Below, piece after piece: positions 6,754 through 36,111 of a stretch of 45,595 bases of DNA (position 1 is the stretch's first letter; the number at the start of each line of letters is the position of its first letter). Below the pieces are notes generated by a model that worked only from the letters and a program-made list of their open reading frames with translations, made no database searches and was not told where the DNA came from. Origin of the DNA: an uncultured Spirochaetaceae bacterium (GTDB taxonomy: Bacteria; Spirochaetota; Spirochaetia; Sphaerochaetales; Sphaerochaetaceae). The stretch covers positions 1-45,595 of the forward strand of contig CALXLI010000098.1 in assembly GCA_944389155.1 (NCBI GenBank), written 5' to 3'. A program made the position numbers and the translations under genes.

Positions 6754-6806
6754 TTGACAAATTCTAAATCTGATATGAATACTAATATTAACACTGATAA
6801 TATCAG
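6754..6806 (+). promoter_or_regulatory. Promoter region and inverted repeat before the methyltransferase/ABC/sulfatase operon
   Basis: The 214-bp gap 6608-6821 is AT-rich. It contains a consensus -35 TTGACA at 6754-6759, though the -10 is not well defined (TGAATA or GAATAC around 6776-6782). The inverted repeat CTGATA-A-TATCAG at 6794-6806 overlaps the likely transcription start and abuts the Shine-Dalgarno AGAAGGA at 6805-6811. Binding by the operon's own GntR regulator is a reasonable guess but unproven. Nothing else is evident in the gap. Confidence 0.45.
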
Positions 6807-6821
6807 AAGGATTTGATAGTA

Positions 6822-7799: not shown

Positions 7800-7801
7800 T
7801 C

Positions 7802-8764: not shown

Positions 8765-8774
8765 AGGGGTGTTT

Positions 8775-10049: not shown

Positions 10050-10076
10050 GATGAAAAATAAAAGGAGGAGAAGGAT

Positions 10077-11423: not shown

Positions 11424-11436
11424 TTTCTCGATTGCC

Positions 11437-11466
11437 GGGCTGGCTGGATTGGCCAGCCCAATATTT
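11437..11466 (+). terminator. Hairpin between binding-protein and permease genes (system 1)
   Basis: Eight-base-pair GC-rich stem GGGCTGGC (11437-11444) with GCCAGCCC (11452-11459) and a seven-base loop, followed by AATATTT. The tail is poor for full termination, so it may partially terminate or stabilise the upstream mRNA 3' end. Confidence 0.55.
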
Positions 11467-11478
11467 CAGGAGTTTTAT

Positions 11479-12354: not shown

Positions 12355-12355
12355 C

Positions 12356-15894: not shown

Positions 15895-16428
15895 ATGCAT
15901 CATTTGAATATGGACAATGAAAGGCTGGAGCAGGCAAAGACAGATCTTGATAAGACAGTCAAAAGCATAAAGGTGAAGAATGGATATGCAGACAGCAAAA
16001 GCATGGGAAAGGAAAGAAAGCGTCTTGCCGCAGCAGTCCTCATATCTGCATCAGTTACTGTATCATTGGCAGTATTCTTTCTTTTGCTTTCATCTGCAGG
16101 TTCTCCTTCCATTCCGTCAATTTCAGAGCAGAAAACGCTTATTGAGGAACTTGATGGAATATATTGGATAAGCAGCAATGAAGGTGAGCTTGCAGAGTTC
16201 TTTGCTATCGATAGAGCAGGGAATATCAAGACTGAGAGGAAAGGTGATTGCCTTGTCCTCGATTTAGGAGAACTGTCTGTATCGTTTTATCCGACACAAT
16301 CAGGCCTTTCTGCAGTCCTTGGCAGGAACAATATCTATCTCTCATATTCAGAAGGGAGAGATGGACGGGCTCGTACCATCTCTCTCCGTTCTCCTTCACG
16401 CCATGTCTCACTCTTTGTTCAGGAGTGA
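15895..16428 (+). CDS. Small single-span membrane protein of unknown function
   Basis: 177 residues. A charged N-terminal segment (about 45 residues, Lys/Asp/Glu-rich, possibly coiled) is followed by one membrane span at roughly 45-67 ([20 protein letters not shown]). A mostly beta C-terminal part then contains [20 protein letters not shown] and repeated strands. I do not recognise a family. The Shine-Dalgarno is weak for both candidate starts (15895 and 15910). The last 21 bases overlap the 3' end of pyrG on the opposite strand. Confidence 0.55.
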
Positions 16429-17994: not shown

Positions 17995-18536
17995 CACTCC
18001 TCCAAAACTATCGAATATGCGGCTTCGCGCAATGTTATCCTATTATCCATAGCCATCTTCTCTATATAGCGATGGCCTTCTTCTTCGCTCATGCCTTTCT
18101 TGAGGGAAAGCATGCATTTTGCCTTGCTTTCTATCCTCATCTCCTCGATGCGGCTTTCAAGCTTTCTTATCCTCTTCTCTGATACAGCAAGACGTTCTCT
18201 TATGGATAATCCAAGACGCAGGGCCTGGAAGAACAATGGCTTTATGATAGGTTTCTCAACGGTTATCGCATTGCTTCCTATCATGGATATGTTCTCGCTT
18301 CTTGCGAGGATTATGCATACAGCTCCTGACTCTTCTTCGATCATGTTGGCAAGTTCTGCTCCTGATTCATCAGAAAGAGGGTAGTTTATCACGACCTCAT
18401 CCCATTCCTCATCCAGGATCTTTCTCCTTGCATCTGATCCAGATAGGCATGGATAAGCCTCGAAGCCAGCCTCTTTGATAAGTGAAATCAGTCCAGAGAG
18501 GCTTTTTTCCGAGGAGGAAACAGCAAGTACCCTCAT
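17994..18536 (-). CDS. ANTAR-domain RNA-binding antiterminator with degenerate receiver
   Basis: 180 residues. The N-terminal receiver-like domain (1-115) lacks the acidic pocket: the early Asp pair is replaced by SSSE, and the phospho-acceptor position reads VVINYPL, with N51 in place of Asp. The lysine of VEKP (K95) is kept. A coiled linker (about 115-135) leads to an ANTAR domain at about 136-178: [20 protein letters not shown] and then [17 protein letters not shown] match the family consensus. ANTAR proteins bind hexaloop hairpins in nascent RNA and prevent terminator formation; versions beside glutamine synthetase genes are known in clostridia. It begins with no gap after glnA. Candidate target hairpins are at 19839-19850, 20188-20203 and 43981-43992. 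Confidence 0.88.
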
Positions 18537-19799
18537 TTACGTCACCAGGAATTCCATATCACGGGCAGCGACTTTCGGATACCCTGATGCAGATGCTGCC
18601 TCCCAGTCCGCTTTCTTTGCGGAGATGAAGCATGAGGCAAGATGTTCGGGCAGCAATGAATGGACAAAGCTGGATCCTTCTGCCTCTTCGATTGCTTCGC
18701 TTAGGTTCTCAGGCAGCTCTTCACCTTCCTTTATCTCTGAAAGCTTCATGTTTTTCTCCAGCCCTTCCTCTGCAGCAGCTGAAAGCAGAAGCAACGCCAG
18801 ATATGGGTTTGAAGAAGGATCTGCTGAACGTATTTCTATGCGTTTGGCATTCTCTGCCTGTACCTCCGGCATCCTTAAAAGAAGACCTCTGTTCCCTGTT
18901 CCCCAGCTTATTGAGCTTGGAGCTTCAAACATACCAAGTCTGTCATATGAGTTTGCGACAGGGTTCAGGAATAGCGTTATTTCCTTGATCCTTGAAAGTA
19001 TTCCAGCGGCCATTGCTTCCTTCATTGAATCGAAAGAAGCGTTTTCAGTCCTGCATGAAAGACTGATGTGAAGACCTGAACCAGAGGCATCAAAAAGAGG
19101 CTTTGGCAGGAATGATGCATAGAGCCCAGCTCTGTTTGCAAGCATTTTTGTCGTTGACTTGAAAGTGATGAGATCATCTGCTGCCCTCATCAAAGGCTCT
19201 GGCCTGAATGTTATCTCATTCTGCCCTGGTCCTTTCTCATGATGGCTTGTATCGATATATATGCCCATCTCTTCGAGCATCAGCGATATTTCCCGCCTTA
19301 TATTCTCACCTTTATCCATAGGGGCCACATCAAGATATCCTGCAGTGTCCATCGGATTGAATGTAGGGAAGCCATTCTCATCGTTGCGGAAGAGGTAGAA
19401 CTCACACTCTGTGCCAGCGATCATCTTTATTGACTTGTCTTTCAGAGCCTTGTCCTTTTGCTTGAGAAGATATCTTGCATCGCCTTCAAAAGGAGTGAGG
19501 TCAGGATGCTTTATGCTGCAGTAAAGCCTGATTACGCTTCCATGGTCTACAGGACGCCAAGGAAGAGGCATGAGTGTTTCTGGCTCGGGAAAGAGGAGCA
19601 GGTCGGAGTCTTCGATATTCAGGAATCCTCTTATTGCTGATGCATCGAACTTAACACCCTCATCAAAGGCTCTTTCAAGAGTCGATGCTGATATCGAGAC
19701 ATTCTTGAGCTGCCCGAAGATATCACAGAATGCAAGCCGTACAAATCGTACACTGTTTTCCTTGATGTAGCTGAGTACATCACTCTTTCCGTATAGCAT
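18537..19799 (-). CDS. glnA: Glutamine synthetase, type I
   Basis: 420 residues, slightly shorter than the usual 440-470. The N-terminal beta-grasp domain (VRFVRLAFCDIFGQLKNVSI) and catalytic barrel are complete: GTECEFYLF, HHEKGPGQNEITFRP, GSGLHISLS, NPVANSYDRL and RIEIRSADPSSNPYLA supply the metal and nucleotide ligands. There is no adenylylation-type Tyr loop, consistent with a GSI-alpha enzyme. It converts glutamate and ammonia to glutamine. It is first in an operon with the ANTAR regulator and pyrG and is transcribed divergently from glnN. Its leader contains a hexaloop hairpin overlapping a terminator just before the Shine-Dalgarno GGAGGG. Confidence 0.95.
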   Translation of the reverse strand: MLYGKSDVLSYIKENSVRFVRLAFCDIFGQLKNVSISASTLERAFDEGVKFDASAIRGFLNIEDSDLLLFPEPETLMPLPWRPVDHGSVIRLYCSIKHPDLTPFEGDARYLLKQKDKALKDKSIKMIAGTECEFYLFRNDENGFPTFNPMDTAGYLDVAPMDKGENIRREISLMLEEMGIYIDTSHHEKGPGQNEITFRPEPLMRAADDLITFKSTTKMLANRAGLYASFLPKPLFDASGSGLHISLSCRTENASFDSMKEAMAAGILSRIKEITLFLNPVANSYDRLGMFEAPSSISWGTGNRGLLLRMPEVQAENAKRIEIRSADPSSNPYLALLLLSAAAEEGLEKNMKLSEIKEGEELPENLSEAIEEAEGSSFVHSLLPEHLASCFISAKKADWEAASASGYPKVAARDMEFLVT

Positions 19800-19810
19800 G
19801 ATCCCTCCAT

Positions 19811-19847
19811 AAAAAGAGAAAAAGGCGCCATAACACCTGACGCCTTT
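19811..19847 (-). terminator. Leader terminator (attenuator) of glnA
   Basis: Minus-strand stem AAAGGCGTCA (19847-19838) with TGGCGCCTTT (19830-19821), one G-U pair, a seven-base loop, then TTCTCTTTTT (19820-19811). It ends three bases before the glnA Shine-Dalgarno, and the gene upstream is divergent, so it cannot serve a preceding gene. It overlaps the hexaloop hairpin at 19839-19850. Confidence 0.85.
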
Positions 19848-19850
19848 GTC
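19839..19850 (-). promoter_or_regulatory. ANTAR-type hexaloop hairpin in the glnA leader
   Basis: Minus strand GAC-AAAGGC-GTC: a three-base-pair stem closing a six-base loop with A at position 1 and G at position 4, the ANTAR recognition pattern. Its loop and right arm are the left arm of the terminator, so only one structure can form. The stem is short; the case rests on the near-identical element in the symporter leader. Confidence 0.6.
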
Positions 19851-19856
19851 TATTTA

Positions 19857-19885
19857 AGGATAATTATTACCATTGCTCTTTTCAA
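19857..19885 (-). promoter_or_regulatory. Promoter-like block of the glnA operon
   Basis: Minus strand TTGAAA (19885-19880), 17-bp spacer, TATCCT (19862-19857). Exactly six bases separate the final CCT from the hexaloop hairpin, as in the glnN and symporter leaders. Confidence 0.5.
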
Positions 19886-20151
19886 GATTAAAGCATTCCT
19901 TATCTGAGAGTTTCTGTAAATCTTATTCTTCCATAGAGCTGGTCCGGCAGGTTGATGACAGCCAGGATCCTGCTATATTCGGCAAAACTGTGAGACAGGC
20001 AATGCCGTAACCAACCAAGGGGGCAAAAGCTGAAAAAGCCGATTCATCCTGCACTGAGGCACATAACTATGATATCAGCAGAAGAGGTGATTTCCAGTTG
20101 ACAGAGGTCCCATCATATGAACTTCTTGGAAAGATTTTCATTTCTGTACTG
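19886..20151. other. Divergent glnA-glnN intergenic core, structured, no gene assigned
   Basis: The stretch 19935-20060 is richer in GC than its surroundings. It holds a nested hairpin CGGCA...TGCCG (19980-19984 with 20003-20007) enclosing CTGT-GAG-ACAG (19988-19998), and the palindrome CAGGATCCTG near 19963. Short open frames exist on both strands, without a convincing start or ribosome-binding site. It could be an undescribed RNA element, a decayed gene or simply spacer; I find no match to a riboswitch class I know. A three-base-pair hexaloop hairpin TGC-ACTGAG-GCA at 20051-20062 fits the ANTAR loop rule but lies about 125 bases from the glnN hairpin. Confidence 0.3.
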
Positions 20152-20180
20152 TTGACTATATTCCTTTTCTTTGATAATCC
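20152..20180 (+). promoter_or_regulatory. Promoter-like block of glnN
   Basis: TTGACT (20152-20157), 17-bp spacer, TAATCC (20175-20180) plus T. Six bases separate the CCT from the hexaloop hairpin, matching the glnA and symporter leaders. GATAAT at 20173-20178 is an alternative -10 with a 15-bp spacer. Confidence 0.5.
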
Positions 20181-20187
20181 TATGAAC

Positions 20188-20203
20188 ACAACAAGGGTGT
20201 TGT
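20188..20203 (+). promoter_or_regulatory. ANTAR-type hexaloop hairpin in the glnN leader
   Basis: ACAAC-AAGGGT-GTTGT: a perfect five-base-pair stem with a six-base loop, A at position 1 and G at position 4. Bases 20193-20203 are also the left arm of the terminator at 20193-20225, so hairpin and terminator exclude each other. This is the arrangement of ANTAR antitermination (hairpin P2). Confidence 0.7.
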
Positions 20204-20233
20204 AGCTATATGCTATAGCACCCTTTTTATTTT
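20193..20233 (+). terminator. Leader terminator (attenuator) of glnN
   Basis: A 14-base-pair stem, AAGGGTGTTGTAGC (20193-20206) with GCTATAGCACCCTT (20212-20225), two G-U pairs and a TATAT loop, followed by TTTATTTT. The glnN Shine-Dalgarno starts three bases after the U-tract. The upstream gene is divergent, so the terminator can only control glnN. Confidence 0.9.
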
Positions 20234-20245
20234 CCAGGAGGAAAT

Positions 20246-22336
20246 ATGGAGACTGTGTCAGATTATTTTGGCTCAATGGTGTTTAACGATGAGGTGATGA
20301 AGGAGAGGCTTCCTAAAGATGTGTATAAGACCCTCAGGCGTACTGTTGATGAAGGGAAGGACCTGGATATCAACGTGGCTAACAGCGTTGCCAATGCTAT
20401 GAAGAACTGGGCGCTCGAGAAGGGGTGCACACATTATACCCATTGGTTCCAGCCAATGACTGGGATAACTGCTGAGAAACATGAGGCTTTTATATCTCCA
20501 GCTCCAGGTGGAAAGGTGCTGCTGGAATTCTCTGGAAAGGAACTTATCAAGGGTGAGCCTGACGCATCATCATTCCCTTCGGGGGGGCTTCGTGCAACAT
20601 TTGAAGCACGTGGATATACTGCATGGGATCCTACAAGCTATGCATTCATCAAGGATGGTACGCTCTGCATCCCTACAGCTTTCTGCTCATATTCCGGTGA
20701 AGTGCTGGATAAGAAGACTCCGCTTCTCAGAAGCATGGAGGCTATATCAGATGAAGCTGTGAAGATCCTTCATCTTTTCGGAATAACAGATGTAAAGAGG
20801 GTAAATACGACTGTTGGACCAGAGCAGGAGTATTTCCTCATCGACAAGAAGGACTTTGCGAAGAGAAAGGACCTCATCTATACAGGACGCACTCTTCTTG
20901 GTGCGCGTGCACCTAAAGGACAGGAAATGGAGGACCATTATTTCGGAGCTTTGAAGACAAGGGTATCTGAATATATGCAGGACCTTGATAAGGAGCTTTG
21001 GAAGCTTGGCGTATATGCAAAGACATCCCACAACGAGGTCGCACCATCACAGCACGAGCTTGCTCCAGTATTCACCACAGCCAATATCGCAGTGGATAAC
21101 AACCAGCTTACAATGGAGATAATGAAGAAGGTCGCAGAACGTCATGGCTTCGTATGCCTCCTGCATGAAAAACCGTTTGCAGGCGTAAACGGCTCAGGAA
21201 AGCACAATAACTGGGCTATTTCCACAGATACCGGCAAGAACCTTCTCGATCCAGGTGATAATCCGAAAGACAATGCTGTATTCCTCCTTTTCATAAGCGC
21301 GGTCATAAAAGCTGTTGATGAGTATCAGGATCTGATAAGGATGAGTGCGGCATCAGCTGGAAATGACCACAGGCTTGGTGCTAACGAGGCGCCTCCTGCT
21401 ATTGTTTCCATGTTCCTTGGAGATGAGCTGACAGAGATTCTTGAATCAATAGCTTCCGGCAAGGCTACAAGCGGAAAGAGCAAGGAGCAGATGAAGCTTG
21501 GCGTTCATGTACTTCCTGTATTCCCGAAGGATACGACTGATAGGAACAGGACAAGCCCATTTGCCTTCACCGGCAATAAGTTTGAGTTCAGGATGCTTGG
21601 ATCTTCATTCTCAGTTGCTGGACCGAATACAGTTCTCAACACAGCTGTTGCAAAGGAGCTTAAGGAGTTCTATTCCGAACTATCCGGTGCAAAGGATCTG
21701 GACGCAGCCGTAACGGAAATCGTAAGAAAGACATATAACGAGCATAAGAGAATCATATTCAATGGCAACAACTATTCAGATGAGTGGGTTGCGGAAGCTG
21801 AGAAGAGGGGACTGATGAACCTCAGATGCTCTCCGGATGCTTATGATACTCTGATCTCTCCTAAGAACATCTCTGTATTCGAGGAGTTCGGAATCTATTC
21901 TTCGGTTGAGCTTCATTCCCGTTACGAGATTCTCAATGAAGAGTATTCGAAGACGATACATATCGAGGCTTTGACACTTATAGATATGATAAACCGTCAG
22001 GTCCTTCCTGCCGTGTTTGGATATGCAAATGAAATTGCAGCTGGCATAGCTACCAAGAAGCAGGTTCTTCCCGAGATGTCATTTGATGCAGAGACAGACA
22101 GGCTTGCAAAGATTGAATCTTTTGCCTCTGAGCTTCACAGAGCAACCGAAGAGCTTGATAAGGCAGTTGTCCTTTCAGGTGAAAGGGAAGGATCGGCCCT
22201 TGCTCATTACTCACACAATGAGATAATTCCTGCAATGGAAGAGGTCAGGAAATATGCTGATGAGCTTGAGCTGATCGTAGGACAGAAGAACTGGCCGTAT
22301 CCAACATATGGTGAGATGCTTTTCTATATAGATTAA
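20246..22336 (+). CDS. glnN: Glutamine synthetase, type III
   Basis: 696 residues, the expected length for the large GSIII class. Signatures include FPSGGLRATFEARGYTAWDP, TVGPEQEYFLID, TSHNEVAPSQHELAPVF, KPFAGVNGSGKHNNW and GNDHRLGANEAPPA, giving the complete active site. It makes glutamine and is typically induced under nitrogen limitation in Bacteroides and clostridia. It is monocistronic, with AGGAGG before ATG 20246, its own terminator at 22361-22391, and a leader with the hexaloop/terminator switch. The window therefore has two unrelated glutamine synthetases with the same leader logic, divergently transcribed from a 446-bp region. Confidence 0.97.
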   Translation: METVSDYFGSMVFNDEVMKERLPKDVYKTLRRTVDEGKDLDINVANSVANAMKNWALEKGCTHYTHWFQPMTGITAEKHEAFISPAPGGKVLLEFSGKELIKGEPDASSFPSGGLRATFEARGYTAWDPTSYAFIKDGTLCIPTAFCSYSGEVLDKKTPLLRSMEAISDEAVKILHLFGITDVKRVNTTVGPEQEYFLIDKKDFAKRKDLIYTGRTLLGARAPKGQEMEDHYFGALKTRVSEYMQDLDKELWKLGVYAKTSHNEVAPSQHELAPVFTTANIAVDNNQLTMEIMKKVAERHGFVCLLHEKPFAGVNGSGKHNNWAISTDTGKNLLDPGDNPKDNAVFLLFISAVIKAVDEYQDLIRMSAASAGNDHRLGANEAPPAIVSMFLGDELTEILESIASGKATSGKSKEQMKLGVHVLPVFPKDTTDRNRTSPFAFTGNKFEFRMLGSSFSVAGPNTVLNTAVAKELKEFYSELSGAKDLDAAVTEIVRKTYNEHKRIIFNGNNYSDEWVAEAEKRGLMNLRCSPDAYDTLISPKNISVFEEFGIYSSVELHSRYEILNEEYSKTIHIEALTLIDMINRQVLPAVFGYANEIAAGIATKKQVLPEMSFDAETDRLAKIESFASELHRATEELDKAVVLSGEREGSALAHYSHNEIIPAMEEVRKYADELELIVGQKNWPYPTYGEMLFYID

Positions 22337-24732: not shown

Positions 24733-25566
24733 ATGGTAGAAATTCATGCTGGAAACATAAAACTCATTGCTGATCCTGACGATGGTATGACAGTTACCTC
24801 ACTTCTTTATAAAGGAATGGAGACAATAGAAGCTGATGAAGAGAGGAAGAGAGCTGGTTCAACTTACGGTATTCCTATTCTTTTCCCTACGCCTAACAGG
24901 GTGAGTGGAGACGCATATACGTTCAACGGGAAGACCGTGCAGGGCGTTATGCATGGCAATCTCAGGCATTCAGTGTTCACGATTGCAGATAAGGAACCAG
25001 GAAAGGTGAAGGCGGTCCTTCCGTTCGATGCATTAGGGGAGTGCTTCCCATATGAAGGAGAGTTCGCACTGATTCTCTCTATCGCTGATGATTCTGTCAT
25101 ATGGGATATCTCTGTTGCAAACAAAGGAAATGAGATGCTCTCGTTTGGCCTTGCGCTTCATCCATTCTTCTGCAAGAGAGAGGGAATGGTTTTCTCATCA
25201 ACCATTGAGTATGAGATGGAAGCTGGCAGCGATAAGATCCCGACTGGCAGATGGTGGAGAACGGATTTTGGCATGGAGAAAAAGGCTGATGGCATCGATA
25301 CTGATACAGTCTTCTTTTCTGATAGCTCAATAAGAAGCGTGCTTTCATCGCCCGATTATTCAATCACGATTGCAGGAAGCCCTGATTTCAACCATGCAGT
25401 GGTCTTCACCTCACCAGAGCGTTCTTTTATATGCGTTGAGCCTCAGACCTGTTCGACTGATGCCCATAATATGTACAGCAAAGGCTTTGTGAAGGAGTCA
25501 GGCCTTATAATTGTCCCGCCTCATTCATCCCATGATCTTTGGGTGAAGATGGCATTTGGATCATAA
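24733..25566 (+). CDS. Aldose 1-epimerase family protein
   Basis: 277 residues of the GalM-like galactose-mutarotase fold: PILFPTPNRVSGDAYTFNGK near residue 48, VMHGNLRHSVF with the catalytic-type histidine, GLALHPFF with the second, and the ICVEPQTCSTDAHNMYSKG segment near the C-terminus. It probably interconverts sugar anomers in the cytoplasm, helping the importer systems around it. The Shine-Dalgarno before ATG 24733 is weak. Its last 62 bases overlap the 3' end of the convergent sensor-kinase gene. Confidence 0.83.
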   Translation: MVEIHAGNIKLIADPDDGMTVTSLLYKGMETIEADEERKRAGSTYGIPILFPTPNRVSGDAYTFNGKTVQGVMHGNLRHSVFTIADKEPGKVKAVLPFDALGECFPYEGEFALILSIADDSVIWDISVANKGNEMLSFGLALHPFFCKREGMVFSSTIEYEMEAGSDKIPTGRWWRTDFGMEKKADGIDTDTVFFSDSSIRSVLSSPDYSITIAGSPDFNHAVVFTSPERSFICVEPQTCSTDAHNMYSKGFVKESGLIIVPPHSSHDLWVKMAFGS

Positions 25567-27244
25567 ACTTTATCGTGTTCTCGAAATATGGATATGATGT
25601 GATCGATACAGAGACAGAGCCAAAGTGGAGCTTCAGGCGTTCATATACGTTCTTAAGCCCCACATGCGGTGTCCTGCTTCCGTTCTCTATAGCTTTCATG
25701 ACTTTATCCGAATCTATGCCGCTGCCGTTATCTGATATGCTGATCGAGAAGAGCTTGTCCTTTTTCTCGATAACTATGCTTATTTCGGGTTCTGCTATGC
25801 CGTTTTCCGGTGAAATATCCCCAAAGCCATGCTTGATTGAGTTCTCGACAAGGGGCTGGAGGATGGATTTTGGAACGGAAAAGCTTTCAAGGTCCTTGTC
25901 CATTGATATCCGGAGCTTTATCTTTCTTTTCAGCCTTTTGTTCATTATCCTCACATAGGCCTCAACGTTCATTATCTCATTTGACAGCAGTATTGCTGAT
26001 TCCCCATGGTTGAGCATTGTACGCAGGAACTGTGCAAGATCGGTTATCATCAGGGAGGCTTCCTCTCTTTTACCGGATGCTATCTCCATGTTTATCGTTT
26101 CAAGGGTGTTGTAGAGGAAATGAGGATTTATCTGCTCTGTCAGCATTGCAGCCAGATATGTGTATTTCTGCCTTTCCTCTTCCTTTATCCTCTCTGTCTG
26201 CCTCCATATGGTTGCATACATATCATTGAGCTCCTCGATAAGCTTTCCTGTCTCATCCTGGAACTTCGGTTTTGTCCCGTAGTCGTAGGCGCCGCTCTTC
26301 ATGCTGTCGATCATGTGCATTATCATCGAGAGTGGGTTCGTCAGGAACACGGATATCCGCCGTATTGAAAGTATGCCGATCGCACTGATTGCCAACAGGC
26401 AGATTATCGAAATGATGAGTATCGGAAGAAGCTGCGGCATGAATGATGGTATGCGGATATCCATAGTGACGGATAGGTTGGGAACTACAGTCTCCGTGCT
26501 CAGTGATATCGCGGATTCATCAGACTTGTCCCGGAAAATCGGCACGGACAGGAAACGCAGGCCATTGCTGCTTTGGAAGAACGCGCTTTTTGTATTGCTT
26601 ATGATGCTTTGTATCCTGCTGCTGTTGAGAAGATATATTATGATGAAATCAGGATTGCCGTCATTGTCTATGCTCAGATATCTTTCAGAACCTAATCTCT
26701 CTATAGGGATGATCACGGGAATGACAGTTCCGCCATGCTTGAAAGGTGAGGAGGTTTCCGGCAGCAATGCCATTCCATTGACAGACTTGAGTGTGTCATA
26801 ATCAAAAAGCACGGACGCAGGATCGGCAGGTATGCTGTCATAGCTTCTGATAACGCTGCCATCATTGAATAGTATGTATATATCGGAGATTGACTGTGCA
26901 CTGCTTTTTGCTTTCTCTATATAAGGTTGCATATCAATAAGAAGGGATATGTAGGAGTTATCCTCCTTTGCGATATTATTTGAGAATGATCTATCCGTGA
27001 CTGTCCTGAGGATGCTGTCATAGATCATGCTCCATTCCTGGTTGAATGCCTCCGCGGAAACCTCAAGCCATTCAGCTGAGCTCATGAGCGCTTCCTGTCT
27101 GTATAGATATGAGAACATGAAAAGCTCAGCTATGCAGATTACGGAACATAGAAGGATGAGCAGGACAATCATCACGATTGAGATCTTGTCCTTCAGCTTC
27201 AGGTTTGAATAGCGCTGCCTTATTTTGCGGAATGCTTTTTCCAT
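25505..27244 (-). CDS. Sensor histidine kinase, YesM type
   Basis: 579 residues. Membrane spans at about 22-46 and 271-294 flank a ~225-residue extracytoplasmic sensor (dCache-like). A HAMP-like segment follows, then the His_kinase domain with QINPHFLYNTLETINMEI (phospho-acceptor H375) and the HATPase domain with LVENSIKHGF and ISDNGSGID. Its start overlaps the response-regulator gene by 25 bases, so the two are one operon with the regulator first. The likely stimulus is a sugar or sugar-loaded binding protein of the adjacent divergent importer (28891 on). The 3' end overlaps the epimerase gene on the other strand by 62 bp. Confidence 0.9.
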   Translation of the reverse strand: MEKAFRKIRQRYSNLKLKDKISIVMIVLLILLCSVICIAELFMFSYLYRQEALMSSAEWLEVSAEAFNQEWSMIYDSILRTVTDRSFSNNIAKEDNSYISLLIDMQPYIEKAKSSAQSISDIYILFNDGSVIRSYDSIPADPASVLFDYDTLKSVNGMALLPETSSPFKHGGTVIPVIIPIERLGSERYLSIDNDGNPDFIIIYLLNSSRIQSIISNTKSAFFQSSNGLRFLSVPIFRDKSDESAISLSTETVVPNLSVTMDIRIPSFMPQLLPILIISIICLLAISAIGILSIRRISVFLTNPLSMIMHMIDSMKSGAYDYGTKPKFQDETGKLIEELNDMYATIWRQTERIKEEERQKYTYLAAMLTEQINPHFLYNTLETINMEIASGKREEASLMITDLAQFLRTMLNHGESAILLSNEIMNVEAYVRIMNKRLKRKIKLRISMDKDLESFSVPKSILQPLVENSIKHGFGDISPENGIAEPEISIVIEKKDKLFSISISDNGSGIDSDKVMKAIENGSRTPHVGLKNVYERLKLHFGSVSVSITSYPYFENTIKFMIQMPSSPKDHGMNEAGQL

Positions 27245-28752
27245 TGCGATGGCGATACTCCGTTCATTCTCTTGAATATCCTGTGGAAGCTCCTGTAGTC
27301 AGAGTAGCCAAGCGATTCGGATATCTCATCTATACGTTTTCCGCTTCCAAGCATATTCTTTGCCTCCTCATTCCGTATCCTGTTTACATAAGAACGGAAC
27401 GTCTCTCCTGTTGTCCTGCTGAAATAAGCACTGAGATAGGGCTGGCTTATTCCAAGCATGGATGCAAGCTCATCTTCTGAGATCTTTCCTTTTATATTCT
27501 CATCGACATATTTCCTGCACTCCTTGATTATCCTGTCGCTGCTGAGCCTTGCTTCCGGGATGATCGATTGGCTTATAGCGATGAAATACTCCGAGATCCT
27601 TTCCTTGATCTCTTCGAACATGAGCATAGGTTCTGCGATGCTTGGCCGTATCCTGTCGAATGCCTCCTGCTTGATATCCTCATCTTCAGCAAGCCCTCGC
27701 TCGACTCCGTTCATCAGGAACAGGAGCATTCCCTTTACGTAGCTTGGCGGGGGTGTTTCAGCAAATAGCATCGAATTGAAGAAATCATCCATATAGGATG
27801 TGATTGCCTCCGCATCTGATGCTTTTATGGCCTCCTTCAGCTTTCCGATGTCTATGTTTGATGTTGACAGCGCAGGACGGTCCTTGCTTATATCGCACTG
27901 CGTGAATATCTTCTTATCCCCTCCGTATGCCTGATACGAAAGCGCCGCTATGGCTTCCATGTATGATTGGCTTATGCTTATAAGGTGAGGCTGTGTTGAG
28001 CCTACACCCGCAACGAAATCCTTCAGTCCGTCCTTTGATAGAAGCTCTATAAGCTGCCGGGCGAAATGGATGACAACACGCTCGCTCCCATTCATTATGA
28101 TTATCGTACGTGTCTTATCATCTATTGCCTCGATTCTTTCCTTGCCCATATATAAGGCTGCTGATGGAGAATCACATACATGCCTGCCGCTTCTCGATGC
28201 AATTGCGATCACCGCCGCTTCGCTGTCTTCAAGGGCCGCACTGAAGCTTTCCAGGCCTTCTTCTATTTCGGCATCGCTTCGCAGGTCTCCGTTTACCATG
28301 TGCTGAAGGAACAGCATCCTGGCATTCCTCTTGAGTATCTCTATGTCAGTTGAGGCCGTATTTGAGGCGGCTATCCTGCTTTTTGCTTTCAATACAGCTT
28401 TTTCAAGCTCATCTTTATCTACAGGTTTGAGAATATAGTTCGATGCGCCAAGCGCAATGGCTTTCTGCGCATATTTGAACTCGTTATATCCTGATATAAG
28501 TATGAATTGGGCCTCAATGCCTTCATCTGCTGCCCTTTCTATCAGATCCAGTCCGGACATTCCGTTCATGACGATATCAGAGAGCACTATATCGGGGTGA
28601 AGGGATCTGATTATAGGAAGGGCCTCTTCTCCTGAAGATGCCGTCCCGATTATCGTAAGCCCCATCCCGTCCCAATCCAGGATATGCCTGAAGCCTTCCC
28701 TTATATCTGGTTCATCATCAACAATGAGTACTTTTCCTTTATCCATTACCAT
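27220..28752 (-). CDS. Response regulator, AraC-type (YesN-like)
   Basis: 510 residues. Receiver domain at 1-125 with KVLIVDDEPDIREGF and phospho-acceptor D59 in DIVLSDIVM. A long helical linker is followed by a C-terminal AraC/XylS double helix-turn-helix (about 410-505: EDELASMLGISQPYLSAYFS and then LGYSDYRSFHRIFKRMNGVS). It should activate the importer operon that starts divergently at 28891 when phosphorylated by the downstream kinase. The start could be 28752 or the ATG two codons later. The 138-bp divergent gap contains TTGACA (near 28799) and an AGTTAC/GTAACT inverted pair, but no repeat as clear as that of the second regulator. Confidence 0.9.
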   Translation of the reverse strand: MVMDKGKVLIVDDEPDIREGFRHILDWDGMGLTIIGTASSGEEALPIIRSLHPDIVLSDIVMNGMSGLDLIERAADEGIEAQFILISGYNEFKYAQKAIALGASNYILKPVDKDELEKAVLKAKSRIAASNTASTDIEILKRNARMLFLQHMVNGDLRSDAEIEEGLESFSAALEDSEAAVIAIASRSGRHVCDSPSAALYMGKERIEAIDDKTRTIIIMNGSERVVIHFARQLIELLSKDGLKDFVAGVGSTQPHLISISQSYMEAIAALSYQAYGGDKKIFTQCDISKDRPALSTSNIDIGKLKEAIKASDAEAITSYMDDFFNSMLFAETPPPSYVKGMLLFLMNGVERGLAEDEDIKQEAFDRIRPSIAEPMLMFEEIKERISEYFIAISQSIIPEARLSSDRIIKECRKYVDENIKGKISEDELASMLGISQPYLSAYFSRTTGETFRSYVNRIRNEEAKNMLGSGKRIDEISESLGYSDYRSFHRIFKRMNGVSPSQWKKHSAK

Positions 28753-28890: not shown

Positions 28891-30273
28891 ATGAAAAAAA
28901 TACTCTCTGTCATGATGATTATGCTTGTACTTGCAGGCTCTGTCTTCGCAGGTGGTGCAAGCGATAAATCTTCTTCGGCTCAGTCTAACGGTAAGACTGT
29001 TGTTAATATCTGGACAAATGATAGGCATGATGCTGAATACTTCAATGAGAAGATTGCAGAATTCAATGCGTCCAATCCTGATATCGAGATAAAGATCACG
29101 ACAATTGTCGAGGATTATCCGAACATGCTCGTAATGGGCTATACAAGCGGAAATGCTCCAGACCTCTTCTATATGAACGCAAGGGGAACTGGCTTTGATA
29201 TCAAGACATTTGTTGATGGCGGAATGCTTGTCCCATATCCAGATGAGGTCCTTGATGATCCTGAGTTCGCGAAGGTAACAGATGCAAGGAATCATGTTAT
29301 TGAAGGTATCAATGCAGTCGATGGCGTCCCTTATGGTGTATACAACGTGCTCAGAAGCGGTACAAGGATGATCTATAATATGGATCTTCTCAAACAGGCA
29401 GGCATTACAGAGCTTCCAAAGACCCTTCAGGAACTTGTTGATGCAGCAGCTGCTGTAACAGCTGTCGGAAATGGGAATTTCTATGGAATCGCTACATGCA
29501 GTTCTGCACAGTTCGAGAGATGGCTTGAGGGAATCTGCAATAAGAGCGGTATCTATCATTACGACTACAAGAACGGCAGATTCGACTTCTCAGGCTACGC
29601 AGAGCCTATAAAGCTTGCGCAGAAGTTCTTTACTGATGGATCTATGTTCCCTGGATCGAACACACAGGGTGTTGATGCTATGAGAGCTCAGTTCGCCAAT
29701 GGCACATTCGCAATCTGGGGCAATGCAAGCCAGGAGGCAGGAGTATTCACAGATCAGTTCCCGATCACATCTTTTGAGTGGGCAGTCAGTGAGCTTCCTT
29801 CCATGGATGGCAATACATACGGTGCTGTAGAGGCTCGTCCTCAGAAGGGACTGTTCATGTTCTCATCATGCAAGAATCAGGATGCAGCATGGGAAGTAGT
29901 CAAGTATCTCAACAGCGAGGATTTCGTAAAGGGATATATCGAACATGGCTACGCACTTCCTCTTACAGAGTACATGGCATCTGTTGTTGATATGAGCAAG
30001 ATCGGCCGTCTGGCTGACTTCTATCTTGTACCATATGAGGCTATGTATCCAGCAGCACCTGCTGTAACTGTTGCAGGCGATCCGTATGCAGTGGCTCTTT
30101 GGAACGTGGTTGTGAGCGGCGGTGATGTTGATAAGGTCATTGCTGATCTCAACAAGTCCTATAATGAGGCTTTGGACCGCGATGTGCAGATCGGCAAGGT
30201 GAAGAGGCTGGTAATTGCAGACTTCGATCCTCTTAACCCAACTGCTGGAACGATCGAGTATCTTGATAAATAA
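28891..30273 (+). CDS. Extracellular carbohydrate-binding protein of an ABC importer (system 2)
   Basis: 460 residues. The signal peptide MKKILSVMMIMLVLAGSVFA ends before GGASDKSS; there is no lipobox cysteine. The mature part has the family-1 solute-binding pattern: VNIWTNDRHDAEYFNEKIAE, then NAPDLFYMNARGTGF, GVPYGVYNVLRSGTRMIYNM and, later, NGTFAIWGNAS. AAAGGAGG precedes ATG 28891. It is followed by a strong terminator hairpin, two permeases and a 1,327-residue fusion protein. Expression is probably governed by the divergent kinase/regulator pair. Ligand unknown; an oligosaccharide is likely. Confidence 0.88.
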   Translation: MKKILSVMMIMLVLAGSVFAGGASDKSSSAQSNGKTVVNIWTNDRHDAEYFNEKIAEFNASNPDIEIKITTIVEDYPNMLVMGYTSGNAPDLFYMNARGTGFDIKTFVDGGMLVPYPDEVLDDPEFAKVTDARNHVIEGINAVDGVPYGVYNVLRSGTRMIYNMDLLKQAGITELPKTLQELVDAAAAVTAVGNGNFYGIATCSSAQFERWLEGICNKSGIYHYDYKNGRFDFSGYAEPIKLAQKFFTDGSMFPGSNTQGVDAMRAQFANGTFAIWGNASQEAGVFTDQFPITSFEWAVSELPSMDGNTYGAVEARPQKGLFMFSSCKNQDAAWEVVKYLNSEDFVKGYIEHGYALPLTEYMASVVDMSKIGRLADFYLVPYEAMYPAAPAVTVAGDPYAVALWNVVVSGGDVDKVIADLNKSYNEALDRDVQIGKVKRLVIADFDPLNPTAGTIEYLDK

Positions 30274-30340: not shown

Positions 30341-31249
30341 ATGAGAAACAGCGCACGGACTATCCGACGTAAAGGAGATGGCGGAATCGCGGCAACGCTG
30401 ATGATGAGCCCTGCGGTTCTTATGCTTATAATCACATCAATCTATCCTTTTTTCTGGCTTTTCCGGTATGTCCTTTATGACTACAACGGATTTGTCGCTT
30501 ACTTTACTGGACTGGACAACATAAAGCGCATGCTTACAGATAGGATATTCTGGGCAAGCGTTGGCCATACGTTTGAGTATGCTGTCCTGAAGCTTATAAT
30601 AACGCTTCCGCTTTCGCTTCTGATTGCTGTCGTGATAAGCCACAACATTCCAGGAAGTTCCGTTTTCAGGGGGATATTCTTCCTCCCGACTGTCATAAGC
30701 GCATCTGTATATAGCCTTATATTCACATTCATCTATGCTGTCTTCCGCGGCCCGCTCAATACGATGCTGCAGACAATCGGATTGATATCGTCCCCGATCG
30801 ACTGGCTTGGCGACCCGAACTGGGTGATGATCTCGATTGTCATTGTTGCTGTCTGGGGTGGCCTTGGAAACTATATGGTCTATTTCCTCTCAGGACTGTC
30901 CAGCATATCATCAGAAGTGTATGAGAGTGCGATGATAGATGGTGCCAATGCCCGTCAGACGTTCTTCCGCATAACGCTTCCGATGCTTTCTCCTATGCTT
31001 AAGGTGATACTTCTCCTGGCTATCACGACATCCTTCAAGGATTATCAGTCAATACTGGTCCTGACAAATGGCGGTCCGAACAACAGAAGCCATGTTATGT
31101 TCTCTTACATCTATAACCTGATCTTCTCATCTACGACGACACCGCAGATAGGTTATGCGACTGTGCTCAGCATCGTTGCAGCTCTTATCATCGGTGCGGT
31201 GACAGCACTGTATATGGTGCTTGCCAGAAAGCTTGATGATGTGGTGTAA
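30341..31249 (+). CDS. ABC carbohydrate permease, MalF/UgpA type (system 2)
   Basis: 302 residues, about six membrane segments (LMMSPAVLMLIITSIYPFFW first), and the coupling loop ESAMIDGANARQTFFRITLP. AGGAGG precedes ATG 30341. It is followed after 10 bp by the second permease gene; no ATPase is encoded in the operon. Confidence 0.88.
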   Translation: MRNSARTIRRKGDGGIAATLMMSPAVLMLIITSIYPFFWLFRYVLYDYNGFVAYFTGLDNIKRMLTDRIFWASVGHTFEYAVLKLIITLPLSLLIAVVISHNIPGSSVFRGIFFLPTVISASVYSLIFTFIYAVFRGPLNTMLQTIGLISSPIDWLGDPNWVMISIVIVAVWGGLGNYMVYFLSGLSSISSEVYESAMIDGANARQTFFRITLPMLSPMLKVILLLAITTSFKDYQSILVLTNGGPNNRSHVMFSYIYNLIFSSTTTPQIGYATVLSIVAALIIGAVTALYMVLARKLDDVV

Positions 31250-31259
31250 GGAGGGAAAT

Positions 31260-32126
31260 ATGGAAAAGGCACATGCAATAAAATCCAGAAAGCAGATAAT
31301 CGAGATGTGGATAGGAATTGCCTTCCTTGCATTCTTTGCGGCTGTCATGCTCTATCCCGTTGTTTATATAACGCTTGGCTCCTTCAAGGAAAACCAGGAG
31401 CTGCTGCTTGGCGGAGCAAGTCTGCTTCCTCGGAAATTCGTATTCTCAAACTATACACAGGCATGGGAGACTGCAAATTTCTCCGTATATACGATCAACA
31501 GTATATTCCTTGGTATTGGCACTATGGTCCTTTCTGTCATTTCCTGTACAATGGCGGGGTATGTGTTCGCCAGGAAGAATTTCAGGTTCAAGGAGCTTCT
31601 GTACAGCACGTTTGTCGCTTTCATGTTCGTGAATGTTGGTTCTGTAACGCTCCGTCCGCTGTTTGAGCTTGCGATAAAGATACATATGAACACAAGCCTG
31701 TGGTTCGTTGTGTTTGTCATAGCAGGTACCAGCCAGGCTACCTGGATATTCCTCTGCCGTGGATACGTAAACAGCATACCGAAGGAGCTGGATGAAGCTG
31801 CCAAGATAGATGGCTGCACATTCTTCCAGACGTTCTATAAGATACTTTTCCCTCTCCTGAAGCCTATAACCGCAACAGTTGCGCTTCTGTCATTCAGGGC
31901 AGGATGGAATGAATACATACTTCCTTTGGTATTCACCATGACGAATGATTCCCTGCGTCCTTTGACTGTAGGCGTCAATATGCTCAAGAACAACGGCGAT
32001 GGAGCTGCTGCCTGGAACATCATGTTTGCAGGTGCGACTCTGGCAATTGTGCCGATGATCGTAATCTACTGCATATTCAGCAGATACTTCATGCAGGGAA
32101 TGACAGCGGGTGCTGTAAAGGGTTGA
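31260..32126 (+). CDS. ABC carbohydrate permease, MalG/UgpE type (system 2)
   Basis: 288 residues with several membrane spans and the coupling loop EAAKIDGCTFFQTFYKILFP. It ends in GMTAGAVKG, like its counterpart in system 1. ATG 31260 has AAGGAGGG upstream; an in-frame TTG at 31221 lies inside the previous gene and is rejected. The fusion-protein gene begins one base after the stop codon. Confidence 0.88.
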   Translation: MEKAHAIKSRKQIIEMWIGIAFLAFFAAVMLYPVVYITLGSFKENQELLLGGASLLPRKFVFSNYTQAWETANFSVYTINSIFLGIGTMVLSVISCTMAGYVFARKNFRFKELLYSTFVAFMFVNVGSVTLRPLFELAIKIHMNTSLWFVVFVIAGTSQATWIFLCRGYVNSIPKELDEAAKIDGCTFFQTFYKILFPLLKPITATVALLSFRAGWNEYILPLVFTMTNDSLRPLTVGVNMLKNNGDGAAAWNIMFAGATLAIVPMIVIYCIFSRYFMQGMTAGAVKG

Positions 32127-32127
32127 T

Positions 32128-35100
32128 ATGTCAAAATTCATTGATCGTTTCATGGTCACAGATGTTACGGAGCGTCCTTACGTCGATGATAGCAATGATA
32201 AGGACCAGCTTAGGTATGAGAACTACCTCAGAAGCAGGATCGCTGTAAGGAATATAGAGTATCCTGGTCCATTTTCCGATGATGGATCATGGCACTTCTA
32301 TTATTCACATGGTGATTATTTTGTTGATTTCAGCACATTCTACTCAACGCTTTCGTACATTGCGTTCGATGCAGTCTCGCAGCTTGAAGCCGAAGAGGAT
32401 TGTGTCCGCCATATGACGCTTTGGACATATGGTGCCGTCGATGTATGGGTGAACGGAGAGAAATGGGCAGAAGTAGCTGTCCCAGTCTGTGAACCCGTAA
32501 CAAAACGTGAGTTTTCTGCAAAGCTGAAGAAAGGCGCGAACGAAATCTATGTGCGTCTGCAGAATCTTGGCGTAAGGGATACTAGAAACCTTTTCGCAAT
32601 TGAAGTAATGGAAGATGAGGGAGTTTCATTCACCATCCCTCAATCCGCTGAAAAGGATGAACTGCTTTCTGCTGCAGCATTCCTCGATGGGACGACAATG
32701 CAGGATGGATGCATCATGTTCCCTTGCAGGCGCAGCGGCGTAAGCATTGGATGCGATAGCGGCAGCCCTGATATCGCAAAGGTCATTTCAAAGACCGTGT
32801 GGGTGGATGCCTCTGATGTCATTTCATGGAAGATGCATGATGATTGCTATATCTACCATATAAAGCTTTCAGTCGGGAATGAAACGCTGAGAAGGACGAT
32901 TGAGAATATAGCATCCGTCAAACCTGTGTATTCCGGAGCATCCTCATGGGAGGATAATTTCCGCAGGAAGCTTGCGGCTATTGCCTCTGTTGAAGGTTTG
33001 AGCCGTGGCGGCAAGTTCGGTTTCTATATACAGAACATACTTGCACGCAAGGCCTTGGGGATAGAGAATCCTAACGACAGGGCATATTTCATGACGACCC
33101 TTGATCAGATCGAGAGCCGCTTTGACTGTTCTGATTTCCTTGTTTCCGGTGTCATAAGATACCTGAAGAACTACAGTGTTGATCCAGAGCTTAAAGCACG
33201 TATCGACGAGGTTCTGCTTGGCTATAGATACTGGATGACGATGGAAGGTTCTGATGCCATGTGCTTCTGGAGCGAGAACCATTCGCTTCTGTTCTATTCG
33301 TCGGCAATGCTTGTCGGTGCGATGTATCCTGATTCATATTTTACAAGAGCGAAGATGACAGGACGCGAACTTGAGGCTTTTGGCAGGACTCTTGTTTCAC
33401 AGTGGTTCGATGATTTTGAGGAGTATGGCTTCGAAGAATTCCTGAGCACTGTATACATGAATGTCACGTTTGCATGTCTGCTGAATATCATAGACTATGC
33501 TGACAAGGATATTTCAGAAAGAGCAAGAAAGGCTGCAGATCTGATGCTCGAGGAGCTGAGCCTGCATACATTCCGTGGCGCAATAGTGGCTCCAATGGGC
33601 AGGGTATACCGTTCTGTGATATATCCGACAATGCAAGGTGCGGCATCTCTCATGAACCTTGTGAACCCAGATGTGCCTACTTCATTTGGAGAAGGGTGGC
33701 TCTCATACTATGCGACATCTTCATATGCTATTCCTGATAGGCTCGTATCGCTTATGAACGATGCTGTTGACTCTGTGTATTCAACAGGAAATGCGTTGAT
33801 TTCAATCCGTAAAAGCAATGATTATATATTGACTTCTGTTCAATCTCCTAGGCTTGATGGCAAGGGACGTTGGACTAATGTCATGCTTTCCGGGAAGAGA
33901 GCCAGCGAGGAAAGCCACGAATATACAAAGTCCTTCAATGAGAGATTCCATGGAACAACATATTTTGAACCTGGGGTATATGGCTATCAGCAGCATATGT
34001 GGTCAGCTGCACTATCTGCGGAGGCGCTTGTCTTCGTGAACCATCCAGGTGCTTTCTCTGATTCCAGCTCCTCACGCCCTGGATACTGGTATGGGAATGG
34101 TGTGATGCCAGCTATCAGGCAGGATGGAAGGATGCTCGGTGCTGTATATTCGATCCCGCTTACGCATCCTGTGCCGTTTACCCATATCTTCCTTCCTGAG
34201 TGTAAATTCGATGAGATCCGCAAAGATGGCAGCTGGATTTTCCTCAGAAAAGGAAATGGATTCCTCGCTCTGTGGATAAGCGGAGATGCTGTGCCGTACA
34301 ATGACCAGCTCTTTGATTCCGAGCTTCGCGTATATGACAGAGAAGCTGCTTACTTTGTGTTTGCAGGCTCTGTCGCGGAGGATTCTTCATTCCCGGCATT
34401 CATTGATAAGGCAAAGTCCCTTTCTCCGGTATTCGACAGGAAGGAACGGACCCTTGCTGTATCAGGTCGGATATTCACATCGTTTGCAGATTCATCTGAC
34501 CGTACGCAGTATGTGGAAGGCATAAAGCCGCTTACGCTTTCTGAGGTTTTCTCTTCATCCCTTGCAGCAAAGCCTGAGGAGAGGAACTGGATTGAAAACC
34601 ATCAGCTTCTGCTTGGTGATGTACATAACCACTCAGGTATAAGCTACGGGCATGGTACGCTTGAAAGGGCAATAGCATTTGCAGGCGGGCAGCTTGATTT
34701 CTTCTCTGTCACAGGGCACTTCGCCTGGCCTGATATGGATAAGGAAGGCATGAGGATACCTGATGAGGTGAAGGCTTATCATAGGGAGGGATTTGCGAAG
34801 CTCAGAAGAGTCTGGCCTGAGTATCTTAAGGCAATGGCCGCATCCGAATCCCTTGGTCTTGTCCCGTTTGCAAGCTATGAGTACCACAGCTTCGATTACG
34901 GTGATTATACAGTAGTCGCCAAAGCGATTGATGAGAAACTCCCTGCAGATCCAGAAGGGGAAGATAATAGGCTTTCCGAGCTTGTAGCTTCAAATGATCC
35001 TGGGAAAAGCGGGCTTTTGCCGATTCCTCACCACATCGGATACAAAGAGGGTTATAGGGGGATCTCCTGGAAGAGATTCAATCAGAATGCAAGCCCATTG

Positions 35101-36111
35101 GTTGAGATTGTATCGATGCACGGAGCTGCCGAGAGCGAGAATGCATTCCCTGCCTATCTCCATACGATGGGACCACGCTCTGGAGAGAATACAATGCAAG
35201 GAGGCCTTGCGGAAGGTCTTGTGTTCGGTGTTGTCGGGAATACCGATCATCATAGCTCATCTCCAGGAAGCTATGGCTCGGGCCGAACTGGGCTTTGGGC
35301 AGTAGGAAAGGATAGGGAGAGCATCTGGAAGGCGCTTCTGGAAAAGCATACCGTAGCTTTGACCGGAGACAGGATCGAGACTGCGTTCTTCCTGAATGGA
35401 AAGACATTCGGAAGCATCGTTGAGGTATCAGATAGCGTGGATGTTGATCTGTATCTTCTTGCAAGGTCCAGGCTTTCACGTGTAGAGATCATCCAGGATG
35501 GAGAGGTCGTGCTGAGCGAAAGCAGCTTCAGGCCGAATCATGGGGATATCAAGCTGTATGACTTTGCAGTAGGCTGGGGCGGAAGAGGCAAGCTCTGCGA
35601 ATGGACTGTGACACTCACTGTAAGCGGTGCTGACCTTAAGGATGTGCAGCCGAGGCTGAAAGGTGAGATGATCGTTGATCCTCTTGCCAAGTCAAAAGAT
35701 GATGGATATGTCCCTAAAGTTGAAAGAAAGGCAAATTCGATTGTCCTGAAAGCCCGGACAGATGGAAATCCGACCCCGACGACTGATTGTACGCAGGGAT
35801 TCTCTTTCTCTGTTGAGCGCAATTCTGAGTACAGCATAGCCATAGACGTGGTGTGTGAGTATGAAGGCAAGAAGGTTGAAAGGCATTATTCATATGATTC
35901 TGCAGCCTTATCCAAAGGCAGTGCTGCAGAGTACATAGACGGCTTTGTTTCACCTGCGCTGCTTCTTTCCAGGGAGATGGACAGTGCAGAGTGCTCTTAT
36001 GAGCTTCATCGTTCATTTGATGTCAGGAAAGATGGCTATATGTACGTAAGGGCAACCGAGGAGAGAGGTGACGAGGTCTGGACGACGCCGATATGGGTAA
36101 GGAGGAAATGA
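32128..36111 (+). CDS. Large multidomain protein: carbohydrate-active-like toroid fused to a PHP/DUF3604-like hydrolase
   Basis: 1,327 residues without signal peptide. The N-terminal ~180 residues are a beta-sandwich resembling sugar-binding modules (LWTYGAVDVWVNGEKW near 97). Residues ~280-560 are helical, like an alpha/alpha toroid of lyases or hydrolases, with the motif WSENHSLLFYSS (S382-E383-N384-H385) and YGFEEFLSTVY. A beta-rich stretch follows to ~780. From ~826 a metal-hydrolase domain of the PHP/DUF3604 type begins: GDVHNHSG (D831, H833, H835), SVTGHFAW (H864), SYEYHSFD (E918), PIPHHIGY (H968, H969), SMHGAAE (H998) and GNTDHHSSSPGSYGSG (D1040-H1042). The last ~200 residues are beta-rich. 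Substrate probably an imported oligosaccharide, but the reaction cannot be named. It is last in the system 2 operon. Confidence 0.75.
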   Translation: MSKFIDRFMVTDVTERPYVDDSNDKDQLRYENYLRSRIAVRNIEYPGPFSDDGSWHFYYSHGDYFVDFSTFYSTLSYIAFDAVSQLEAEEDCVRHMTLWTYGAVDVWVNGEKWAEVAVPVCEPVTKREFSAKLKKGANEIYVRLQNLGVRDTRNLFAIEVMEDEGVSFTIPQSAEKDELLSAAAFLDGTTMQDGCIMFPCRRSGVSIGCDSGSPDIAKVISKTVWVDASDVISWKMHDDCYIYHIKLSVGNETLRRTIENIASVKPVYSGASSWEDNFRRKLAAIASVEGLSRGGKFGFYIQNILARKALGIENPNDRAYFMTTLDQIESRFDCSDFLVSGVIRYLKNYSVDPELKARIDEVLLGYRYWMTMEGSDAMCFWSENHSLLFYSSAMLVGAMYPDSYFTRAKMTGRELEAFGRTLVSQWFDDFEEYGFEEFLSTVYMNVTFACLLNIIDYADKDISERARKAADLMLEELSLHTFRGAIVAPMGRVYRSVIYPTMQGAASLMNLVNPDVPTSFGEGWLSYYATSSYAIPDRLVSLMNDAVDSVYSTGNALISIRKSNDYILTSVQSPRLDGKGRWTNVMLSGKRASEESHEYTKSFNERFHGTTYFEPGVYGYQQHMWSAALSAEALVFVNHPGAFSDSSSSRPGYWYGNGVMPAIRQDGRMLGAVYSIPLTHPVPFTHIFLPECKFDEIRKDGSWIFLRKGNGFLALWISGDAVPYNDQLFDSELRVYDREAAYFVFAGSVAEDSSFPAFIDKAKSLSPVFDRKERTLAVSGRIFTSFADSSDRTQYVEGIKPLTLSEVFSSSLAAKPEERNWIENHQLLLGDVHNHSGISYGHGTLERAIAFAGGQLDFFSVTGHFAWPDMDKEGMRIPDEVKAYHREGFAKLRRVWPEYLKAMAASESLGLVPFASYEYHSFDYGDYTVVAKAIDEKLPADPEGEDNRLSELVASNDPGKSGLLPIPHHIGYKEGYRGISWKRFNQNASPLVEIVSMHGAAESENAFPAYLHTMGPRSGENTMQGGLAEGLVFGVVGNTDHHSSSPGSYGSGRTGLWAVGKDRESIWKALLEKHTVALTGDRIETAFFLNGKTFGSIVEVSDSVDVDLYLLARSRLSRVEIIQDGEVVLSESSFRPNHGDIKLYDFAVGWGGRGKLCEWTVTLTVSGADLKDVQPRLKGEMIVDPLAKSKDDGYVPKVERKANSIVLKARTDGNPTPTTDCTQGFSFSVERNSEYSIAIDVVCEYEGKKVERHYSYDSAALSKGSAAEYIDGFVSPALLLSREMDSAECSYELHRSFDVRKDGYMYVRATEERGDEVWTTPIWVRRK

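Follow-up and report, generated by a model that had tools for sequence, protein, structure and literature searches.

A spirochaete gene joining a lyase-like toroid protein to a PHP-type metallohydrolase, a candidate enzyme for imported uronic-acid glycans

The DNA analysed here, hereafter the window, is a stretch of 45,595 nucleotides from an uncultured Spirochaetaceae bacterium, a gut spirochaete (GCA_944389155.1, contig CALXLI010000098.1, positions 1-45,595, forward strand). It carries a gene whose product joins a half resembling polysaccharide lyases to a PHP-type metallohydrolase half. An earlier, sequence-only reading of the window had described this gene as one frame of 1,327 residues, and the frame is indeed open from ATG to stop and recurs in a second genome (L008). 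The locus comprises, in order, an aldose 1-epimerase-like gene, divergent genes for a sensor kinase and an AraC-type response regulator, the solute-binding protein (SBP) and two permeases of an ATP-binding cassette (ABC) importer, and the fused gene, which starts 2 bp past the second permease gene (Table 1). Because the N-terminus of the fused protein has no hydrophobic stretch, location in the cytoplasm is the simplest inference; judged from its sequence, the protein is probably cytoplasmic, in agreement with the sequence-only reading, which had also placed the gene directly behind an ABC importer.

Table 1. Features of the fused gene, its locus and related loci (coordinates refer to the window unless a locus or contig is named)
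Feature	Location	Strand	Basis or remark
Fused gene, lyase-like half + PHP half	32128..36111	+	ATG-to-stop open frame, 1327 residues; equal-length orthologue at L008:10001-13984
Residues 1-165, predicted GH2-type jelly-roll domain	32128..32622	+	Model; VIA-align Z ~10 over ~125 residues to GH2 N-terminal domains
Residues 272-545, predicted helical toroid, polysaccharide-lyase type	32941..33762	+	Model and fold search
N384-H385, putative equivalent of catalytic Asn(-His) of toroid lyases	33277..33282	+	Conservation in 47 homologues, profile alignment, paralogues
Y443, putative equivalent of catalytic Tyr of toroid lyases	33454..33456	+	Conservation, profile alignment, paralogues
Residues 546-797, predicted beta-sandwich of lyase-like half	33763..34518	+	Ends where the unfused family ends (..TQYV)
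Residues 798-826, junction	34519..34605	+	~6 new residues; remainder aligns with start of unfused PHP proteins
Residues 827-1082, PHP metallohydrolase domain	34606..35373	+	Fold search; NF038032 E 3.7e-12
D831-V-H833-N-H835, PHP motif I	34618..34632	+	Conserved among relatives
H864, metal-ligand candidate	34717..34719	+	
E918, metal-ligand candidate	34879..34881	+	
H968, metal-ligand candidate	35029..35031	+	
H998, metal-ligand candidate	35119..35121	+	
D1040-H1041-H1042, last PHP motif	35245..35253	+	
Residues 1083-1327, C-terminal beta domains	35374..36108	+	Present in unfused PHP relatives too
ABC permease 2	31221..32126	+	PF00528
ABC permease 1	30341..31249	+	PF00528
ABC solute-binding protein	28891..30273	+	PF01547
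AraC-type response regulator	27220..28752	-	Same family beside L008, L009, L023, L061
Sensor histidine kinase	25505..27244	-	Divergent from importer genes
Aldose 1-epimerase-like gene	24733..25566	+	Related gene in G411 adjoins unfused PHP gene
G372 unfused operon	L132:10037-12418 (lyase-like) and 12418-14019 (PHP)		Two separate genes meeting at the stop codon
Members of 580-600-residue family	L115:6820-8565, L136:2363-4111, L154:5427-7220 and relatives	-, +, +	
Heparinase II/III N matches, own genome	Contigs C2, C4, C18, C67, C128 (L141, L146-L150)		

An independent metagenome-assembled genome (MAG) of an uncultured Spirochaetaceae bacterium (L008, genome G004), a second species of the same genus, carries a fused protein of the same 1327 residues, 74% identical to the window protein and aligned with it over all 1327 residues without a gap. 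Between the two, the nonsynonymous substitution rate (dN) was 0.185 in the first half, where synonymous sites are saturated, and its ratio to the synonymous rate (dN/dS) stood at 0.06 within the PHP domain and at 0.10 in the part C-terminal to it; in this comparison the fused protein is under purifying selection. Since this MAG holds a gap-free frame of equal length, with low dN and saturated or nearly saturated synonymous sites, both an assembly artefact and a chance frame could be rejected. The junction is the sole loose part of the alignment (41% identity between window and L008). The C-terminus of unfused first halves reads ..TQYV or ..TQYI, and the start of the unfused PHP protein of G411 aligns with about residue 803 of the fusion; because these ends and starts align at the junction, the fusion retains both proteins complete and adds some six residues.

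The fused state is rare. A scan of genome contigs returned one full-length relative (L008), one locus with the second half only (L061) and 58 loci with the first half only; the fusion is present in 2 of the 48 genomes of the genus, with no further case in the family (139 genomes). Split versions, for which the sequence-only reading had proposed a genome survey, are the rule, the halves being separate genes in every other genome examined. Long frames at G494 and G711 were considered as further fusions and discarded, the genes there encoding about 805-840 residues without an extra domain. Two operon enzymes might have been joined by loss of a stop codon as a neutral accident that left their catalysis uncoupled, and the minimal junction, the separate genes of the relatives and the restriction of the fused state to two genomes all fit such an origin; an identical fused length has nevertheless been kept in two species despite saturated synonymous sites, and the linkage of the two genes has more than one origin (see below), so that we regard a neutral origin as rather unlikely.

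The first half belongs to a family of about 800 residues (residues 1-797 of the fusion) that occurs alone in Lachnospiraceae, Paenibacillus and spirochaetes. It has no match in Pfam, in NCBIfam or among PDB sequences, and the curated lyase families (Pfam Hepar_II_III and others) gave no match in 47 family members at E<=1; because no curated lyase model matches, the first half was not filed under any existing lyase family. The AlphaFold2 model computed from the 47-sequence alignment has a mean predicted local distance difference test score (pLDDT) of 90 and a predicted TM-score (pTM) of 0.90. Residues 272-793 of this model match the polysaccharide lyase family 17 (PL17) alginate lyases 7bjt and 4ojz (Z 10.1-10.2 over ~420 residues, root-mean-square deviation (rmsd) 6.8) and heparinase III (4fnv; Z 9.9 over 410 residues), and the chondroitinase 9o3q is also among the best structural matches; overall, the lyase matches reach Z ~10 over 384-422 residues, a toroid followed by an antiparallel beta-sandwich. 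The same order, toroid and then large beta-sandwich, is found in PL17 (Alg17c, 4ojz/4nei; 7bjt), PL12 heparinase III (4fnv, 5jmf) and PL15 (3a0o). On the predicted structure, the first half is a toroid/beta-sandwich protein of the PL17/PL12/PL15 superfold with a jelly roll in front, which refines the N-terminal beta-sandwich and toroid-like region of the sequence-only reading.

In lyases of families PL12, PL15, PL17 and PL39 the catalytic residues are Asn, His and Tyr, for instance Asn186, His187 and Tyr239 in PL39 (PMC12088678). The corresponding residues N384, H385 and Y443 are invariant or nearly so in the family alignment, and a profile alignment placed N384 and Y443 in register with the conserved Asn and Tyr of heparinase II/III proteins (E 0.0025, 166 columns), compared with E 0.0069 to 0.92 over at most 62 columns for 21 control profiles, the best of which was a GH2 profile on the jelly roll. 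Six distant paralogues retain the Asn in five cases, the His in all six and the Tyr in five, and four His residues of the beta-sandwich are invariant in the family (H608, H623, H639 and H686). S382-E-N-H385 in this half, and D831, H833, H835, H864, E918, H968, H998 and D1040 in the other, had been picked out by the sequence-only reading, and all are present at these positions. Four points set the fused protein apart from the toroid lyases of PL17, PL12 and PL15, with which it shares the Asn-His and Tyr motif: a GH2-type jelly roll at the N-terminus, the lack of a detectable Pfam lyase domain, a sequence identity of 7-10%, and the fusion to a PHP domain. Separately, a paralogue family of the lyase-like half, of about 846 residues, was found at L004:669-3209 (-) and at comparable positions across many genomes of the genus; it is ~27% identical to the lyase-like half, has no Pfam hit and retains SENH and Y443, with H623 variable.

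The first half could instead be a glycoside hydrolase (GH) or another toroid sugar enzyme on a hydrolase scaffold, with the PHP half as a trimming esterase. The top Foldseek rows are jelly rolls of GH2/GH78 type, the lyase-like gene of Firmicutes has mostly glycoside hydrolases (GH28, GH2 and GH38) as neighbours, and curated lyase families are silent on this half. A hydrolase accounts less well for a toroid and large beta-sandwich that match PL17/PL12 in lyase order over ~420 residues, for an invariant Asn-His and Tyr aligned with lyase catalytic residues, and for the heparinase-like proteins that accompany PHP relatives elsewhere, and we consider it quite improbable.

The second half clearly has a PHP fold in its predicted structure, in which the first 268 residues match TM0559 (2anu) with Z 16.4 over 211 residues, BVU_3505 (3e38) with Z 14.5 and EndoQ with Z 12.4. 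Separate fold searches of the two halves, as the sequence-only reading had advised, thus recovered both the toroid and the PHP fold. This model was built on five sequences because viral contigs, in which we found no PHP-half relatives, could not enlarge the alignment. The HxH...H...E...H...H...DxH set is complete (H833, H835, H864, E918, H968, H998, D1040 and H1042) and conserved among relatives; as in the PHP superfamily, these residues are putative metal ligands. Residues 830-1131 matched the NCBIfam CehA/McbA model NF038032 (E 3.7e-12), as did 10 of 11 relatives; since the score of 46-50 bits falls short of the 80-bit cut-off, the PHP half is a distant relative and was not assigned to CehA/McbA. 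Of the PHP/DUF3604-like hydrolase seen by the sequence-only reading, the PHP fold and ligand pattern stand, while the DUF3604 label (PF12228) is borderline: its match, over ~45 positions only, lies at or below the gathering score of 20.4 bits in the window (19.3; 21.1 in L008 and 21.2 in G043), and CehA/McbA is the nearest curated model.

The PHP-type ligand pattern is common to the second half, CehA/McbA and DUF3604 proteins; unlike CehA/McbA, the PHP half carries C-terminal beta domains and stands in a context of sugar utilisation, not of carbamate degradation. TM0559 and BVU_3505 share its fold, and BVU_3505 also has a second domain, but both are without a lyase-type partner domain, and their descriptions go no further than a predicted phosphoesterase. 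Phosphoesterases and nucleases account for many PHP folds (the title of 2anu; EndoQ) and sulfatases adjoin unfused PHP relatives in many loci, as would suit a phosphatase or sulfate-ester hydrolase acting on a phosphorylated or sulfated sugar. Such sulfatases, where present, would already desulfate the substrate, however, loci of the lyase-like family have no sulfatase nearby, and the closest characterised relatives by curated model, CehA/McbA, are carbamate esterases; four His residues are important in the CehA enzymes (PMC8292978). We therefore judge a phosphatase or sulfate-ester hydrolase in particular to be unlikely. We found nothing that favours the phosphorylated glycan suggested by the sequence-only reading in particular; the gene neighbourhoods of relatives suggest glycans of uronic acids, often sulfated.

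The two halves are also linked where they are not fused. In the spirochaete G372, an operon matches the fused locus in its regulators, importer, lyase-like gene and PHP gene and in their order (kinase, regulator, SBP, permease, permease, lyase-like gene, PHP gene), with the difference that the last two are separate genes and the PHP gene is of another clade; they meet at TAATGGAGGAATTTATG, the PHP start either overlapping the lyase-like stop or sitting 11 bases past it. The PHP gene of G411 (also L023) is apparently divided between the ends of two contigs: the head adjoins an epimerase-like gene on the first, and the tail adjoins the kinase where the other, which carries importer and lyase-like gene, begins; we infer that head and tail are one gene. 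Clostridium sp. AT4 (L011) has the lyase-like and PHP genes side by side in convergent orientation. In the PHP-half tree, the fusion groups with G043, G407 and G411 (support 99/99) and the G372 gene lies in another clade with sulfatase-linked genes (support 100/99); because G372 and the fusion have PHP genes of different clades, the association of the halves arose more than once. Among 298 genomes of one clostridial family, with the index genome left out, the first half occurs in eight, the second in five and both in three (P 1.3e-4, not corrected for relatedness). The side-by-side genes of relatives suggest that the two halves work together.

Genomic surroundings offer cues to the substrate. 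The lyase-like gene usually follows an SBP/permease importer and often has GH28, GH2 or GH38 genes close by. Unfused PHP genes of other clades, in spirochaetes and Clostridia, lie in modules with GH88, DUF2264, sulfatases, importers and a protein of 580-600 residues, GH88 and DUF2264 in the clostridial loci being recognised by length, place and sequence resemblance only. This companion has no Pfam hit and matches a heparinase II/III profile (hhalign E 5.6e-6, 187 columns), which makes its family another candidate lyase family; because of this match, the PHP branch can be said to recur beside lyase-like toroid proteins. Kinase- and GH28-like genes, by sequence resemblance, lie near the PHP gene of G043. 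The substrate could be pectic, as the GH28 neighbours and the G043 surroundings would have it, or glycosaminoglycan-like, as the sulfatases and GH88 beside relatives would. Sulfate was rejected as a substrate cue for the fused enzyme, sulfatases occurring beside unfused PHP genes but at none of 60 retrieved loci of fused-protein relatives; the window's own sulfatase is ~17 kb away. The host genome has six heparinase II/III N matches, compared with five in 119 other genomes of the phylum, consistent with an organism that is probably a specialised degrader of uronic-acid glycans. At L120, L121, L128 and L129, in several genomes of the genus, distant PHP relatives adjoin an amidohydrolase and another type of ABC importer, and the PHP branch thus has other roles too.

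Taken with some reserve, our favoured explanation is that the fused protein acts in the cytoplasm as a bifunctional enzyme on a single imported uronic-acid oligosaccharide, a lyase-type half being coupled to an ester-hydrolysing PHP half. The upstream importer, under control of the divergent two-component system, would bring the oligosaccharide in, and the N-terminal half would cleave it by beta-elimination, N384 neutralising the carboxylate and Y443 serving as acid/base with the aid of H385 and a beta-domain His. The PHP domain would bind a metal cluster through the eight residues listed above and hydrolyse an ester-type bond in that glycan or in the lyase product, both steps being coupled. 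Several observations weigh against this proposal. The fold score of the lyase part is moderate (Z ~10, rmsd 5.7-7), Asn and Tyr are both lost in one of the six paralogues, and H623, one of four candidates for the beta-domain catalytic His, varies among paralogues. The PHP-half model is of modest quality (pLDDT 62, five sequences), the fusion is known from two genomes only, and no member of either family has been characterised. Neither a sulfatase nor GH88 adjoins the gene in the fused lineage, so the PHP relatives give no direct reading of its substrate.

Each half has a known fold; as far as Pfam, NCBIfam, PDB and open papers show, neither the architecture nor the first-half family seems to have been described before, and no characterised full-length homologue was found among PDB sequences or in the open papers searched. 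Of the outcomes that the sequence-only reading had named as refuting it, none came about. The protein is thus a candidate for a new architecture from known enzyme classes, with a candidate unclassified lyase family. A wider proposal, to which we would give somewhat less than an even chance, is that the ~800-residue family is an unrecognised polysaccharide-lyase family, that its PHP partner performs an undescribed step common to many lyase-based uronate pathways, alongside the lyase-like family here and alongside the heparinase-like family of 580-600 residues, GH88 and sulfatases elsewhere, and that the fusion is a one-chain lyase/esterase with coupled sites. The fused protein marks out a widespread family, one that lacks a Pfam model, as a candidate uronate lyase, and it connects a little-understood group of PHP hydrolases with lyase-type glycan breakdown in two phyla. 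If this is confirmed, a missing step in the handling of modified uronic-acid glycans by gut bacteria could be assigned to PHP enzymes, and the fused protein would offer both steps in a single construct.

Two further groups of genes lie elsewhere in the window. A second cluster (5615-14652) comprises a LacI regulator, two URO-D-like proteins, a serine-dehydratase-alpha-like protein, an importer and a sulfatase. At 16408-22336, an ANTAR regulator is flanked by genes for glutamine synthetase and CTP synthase, and a type III glutamine synthetase is close by.

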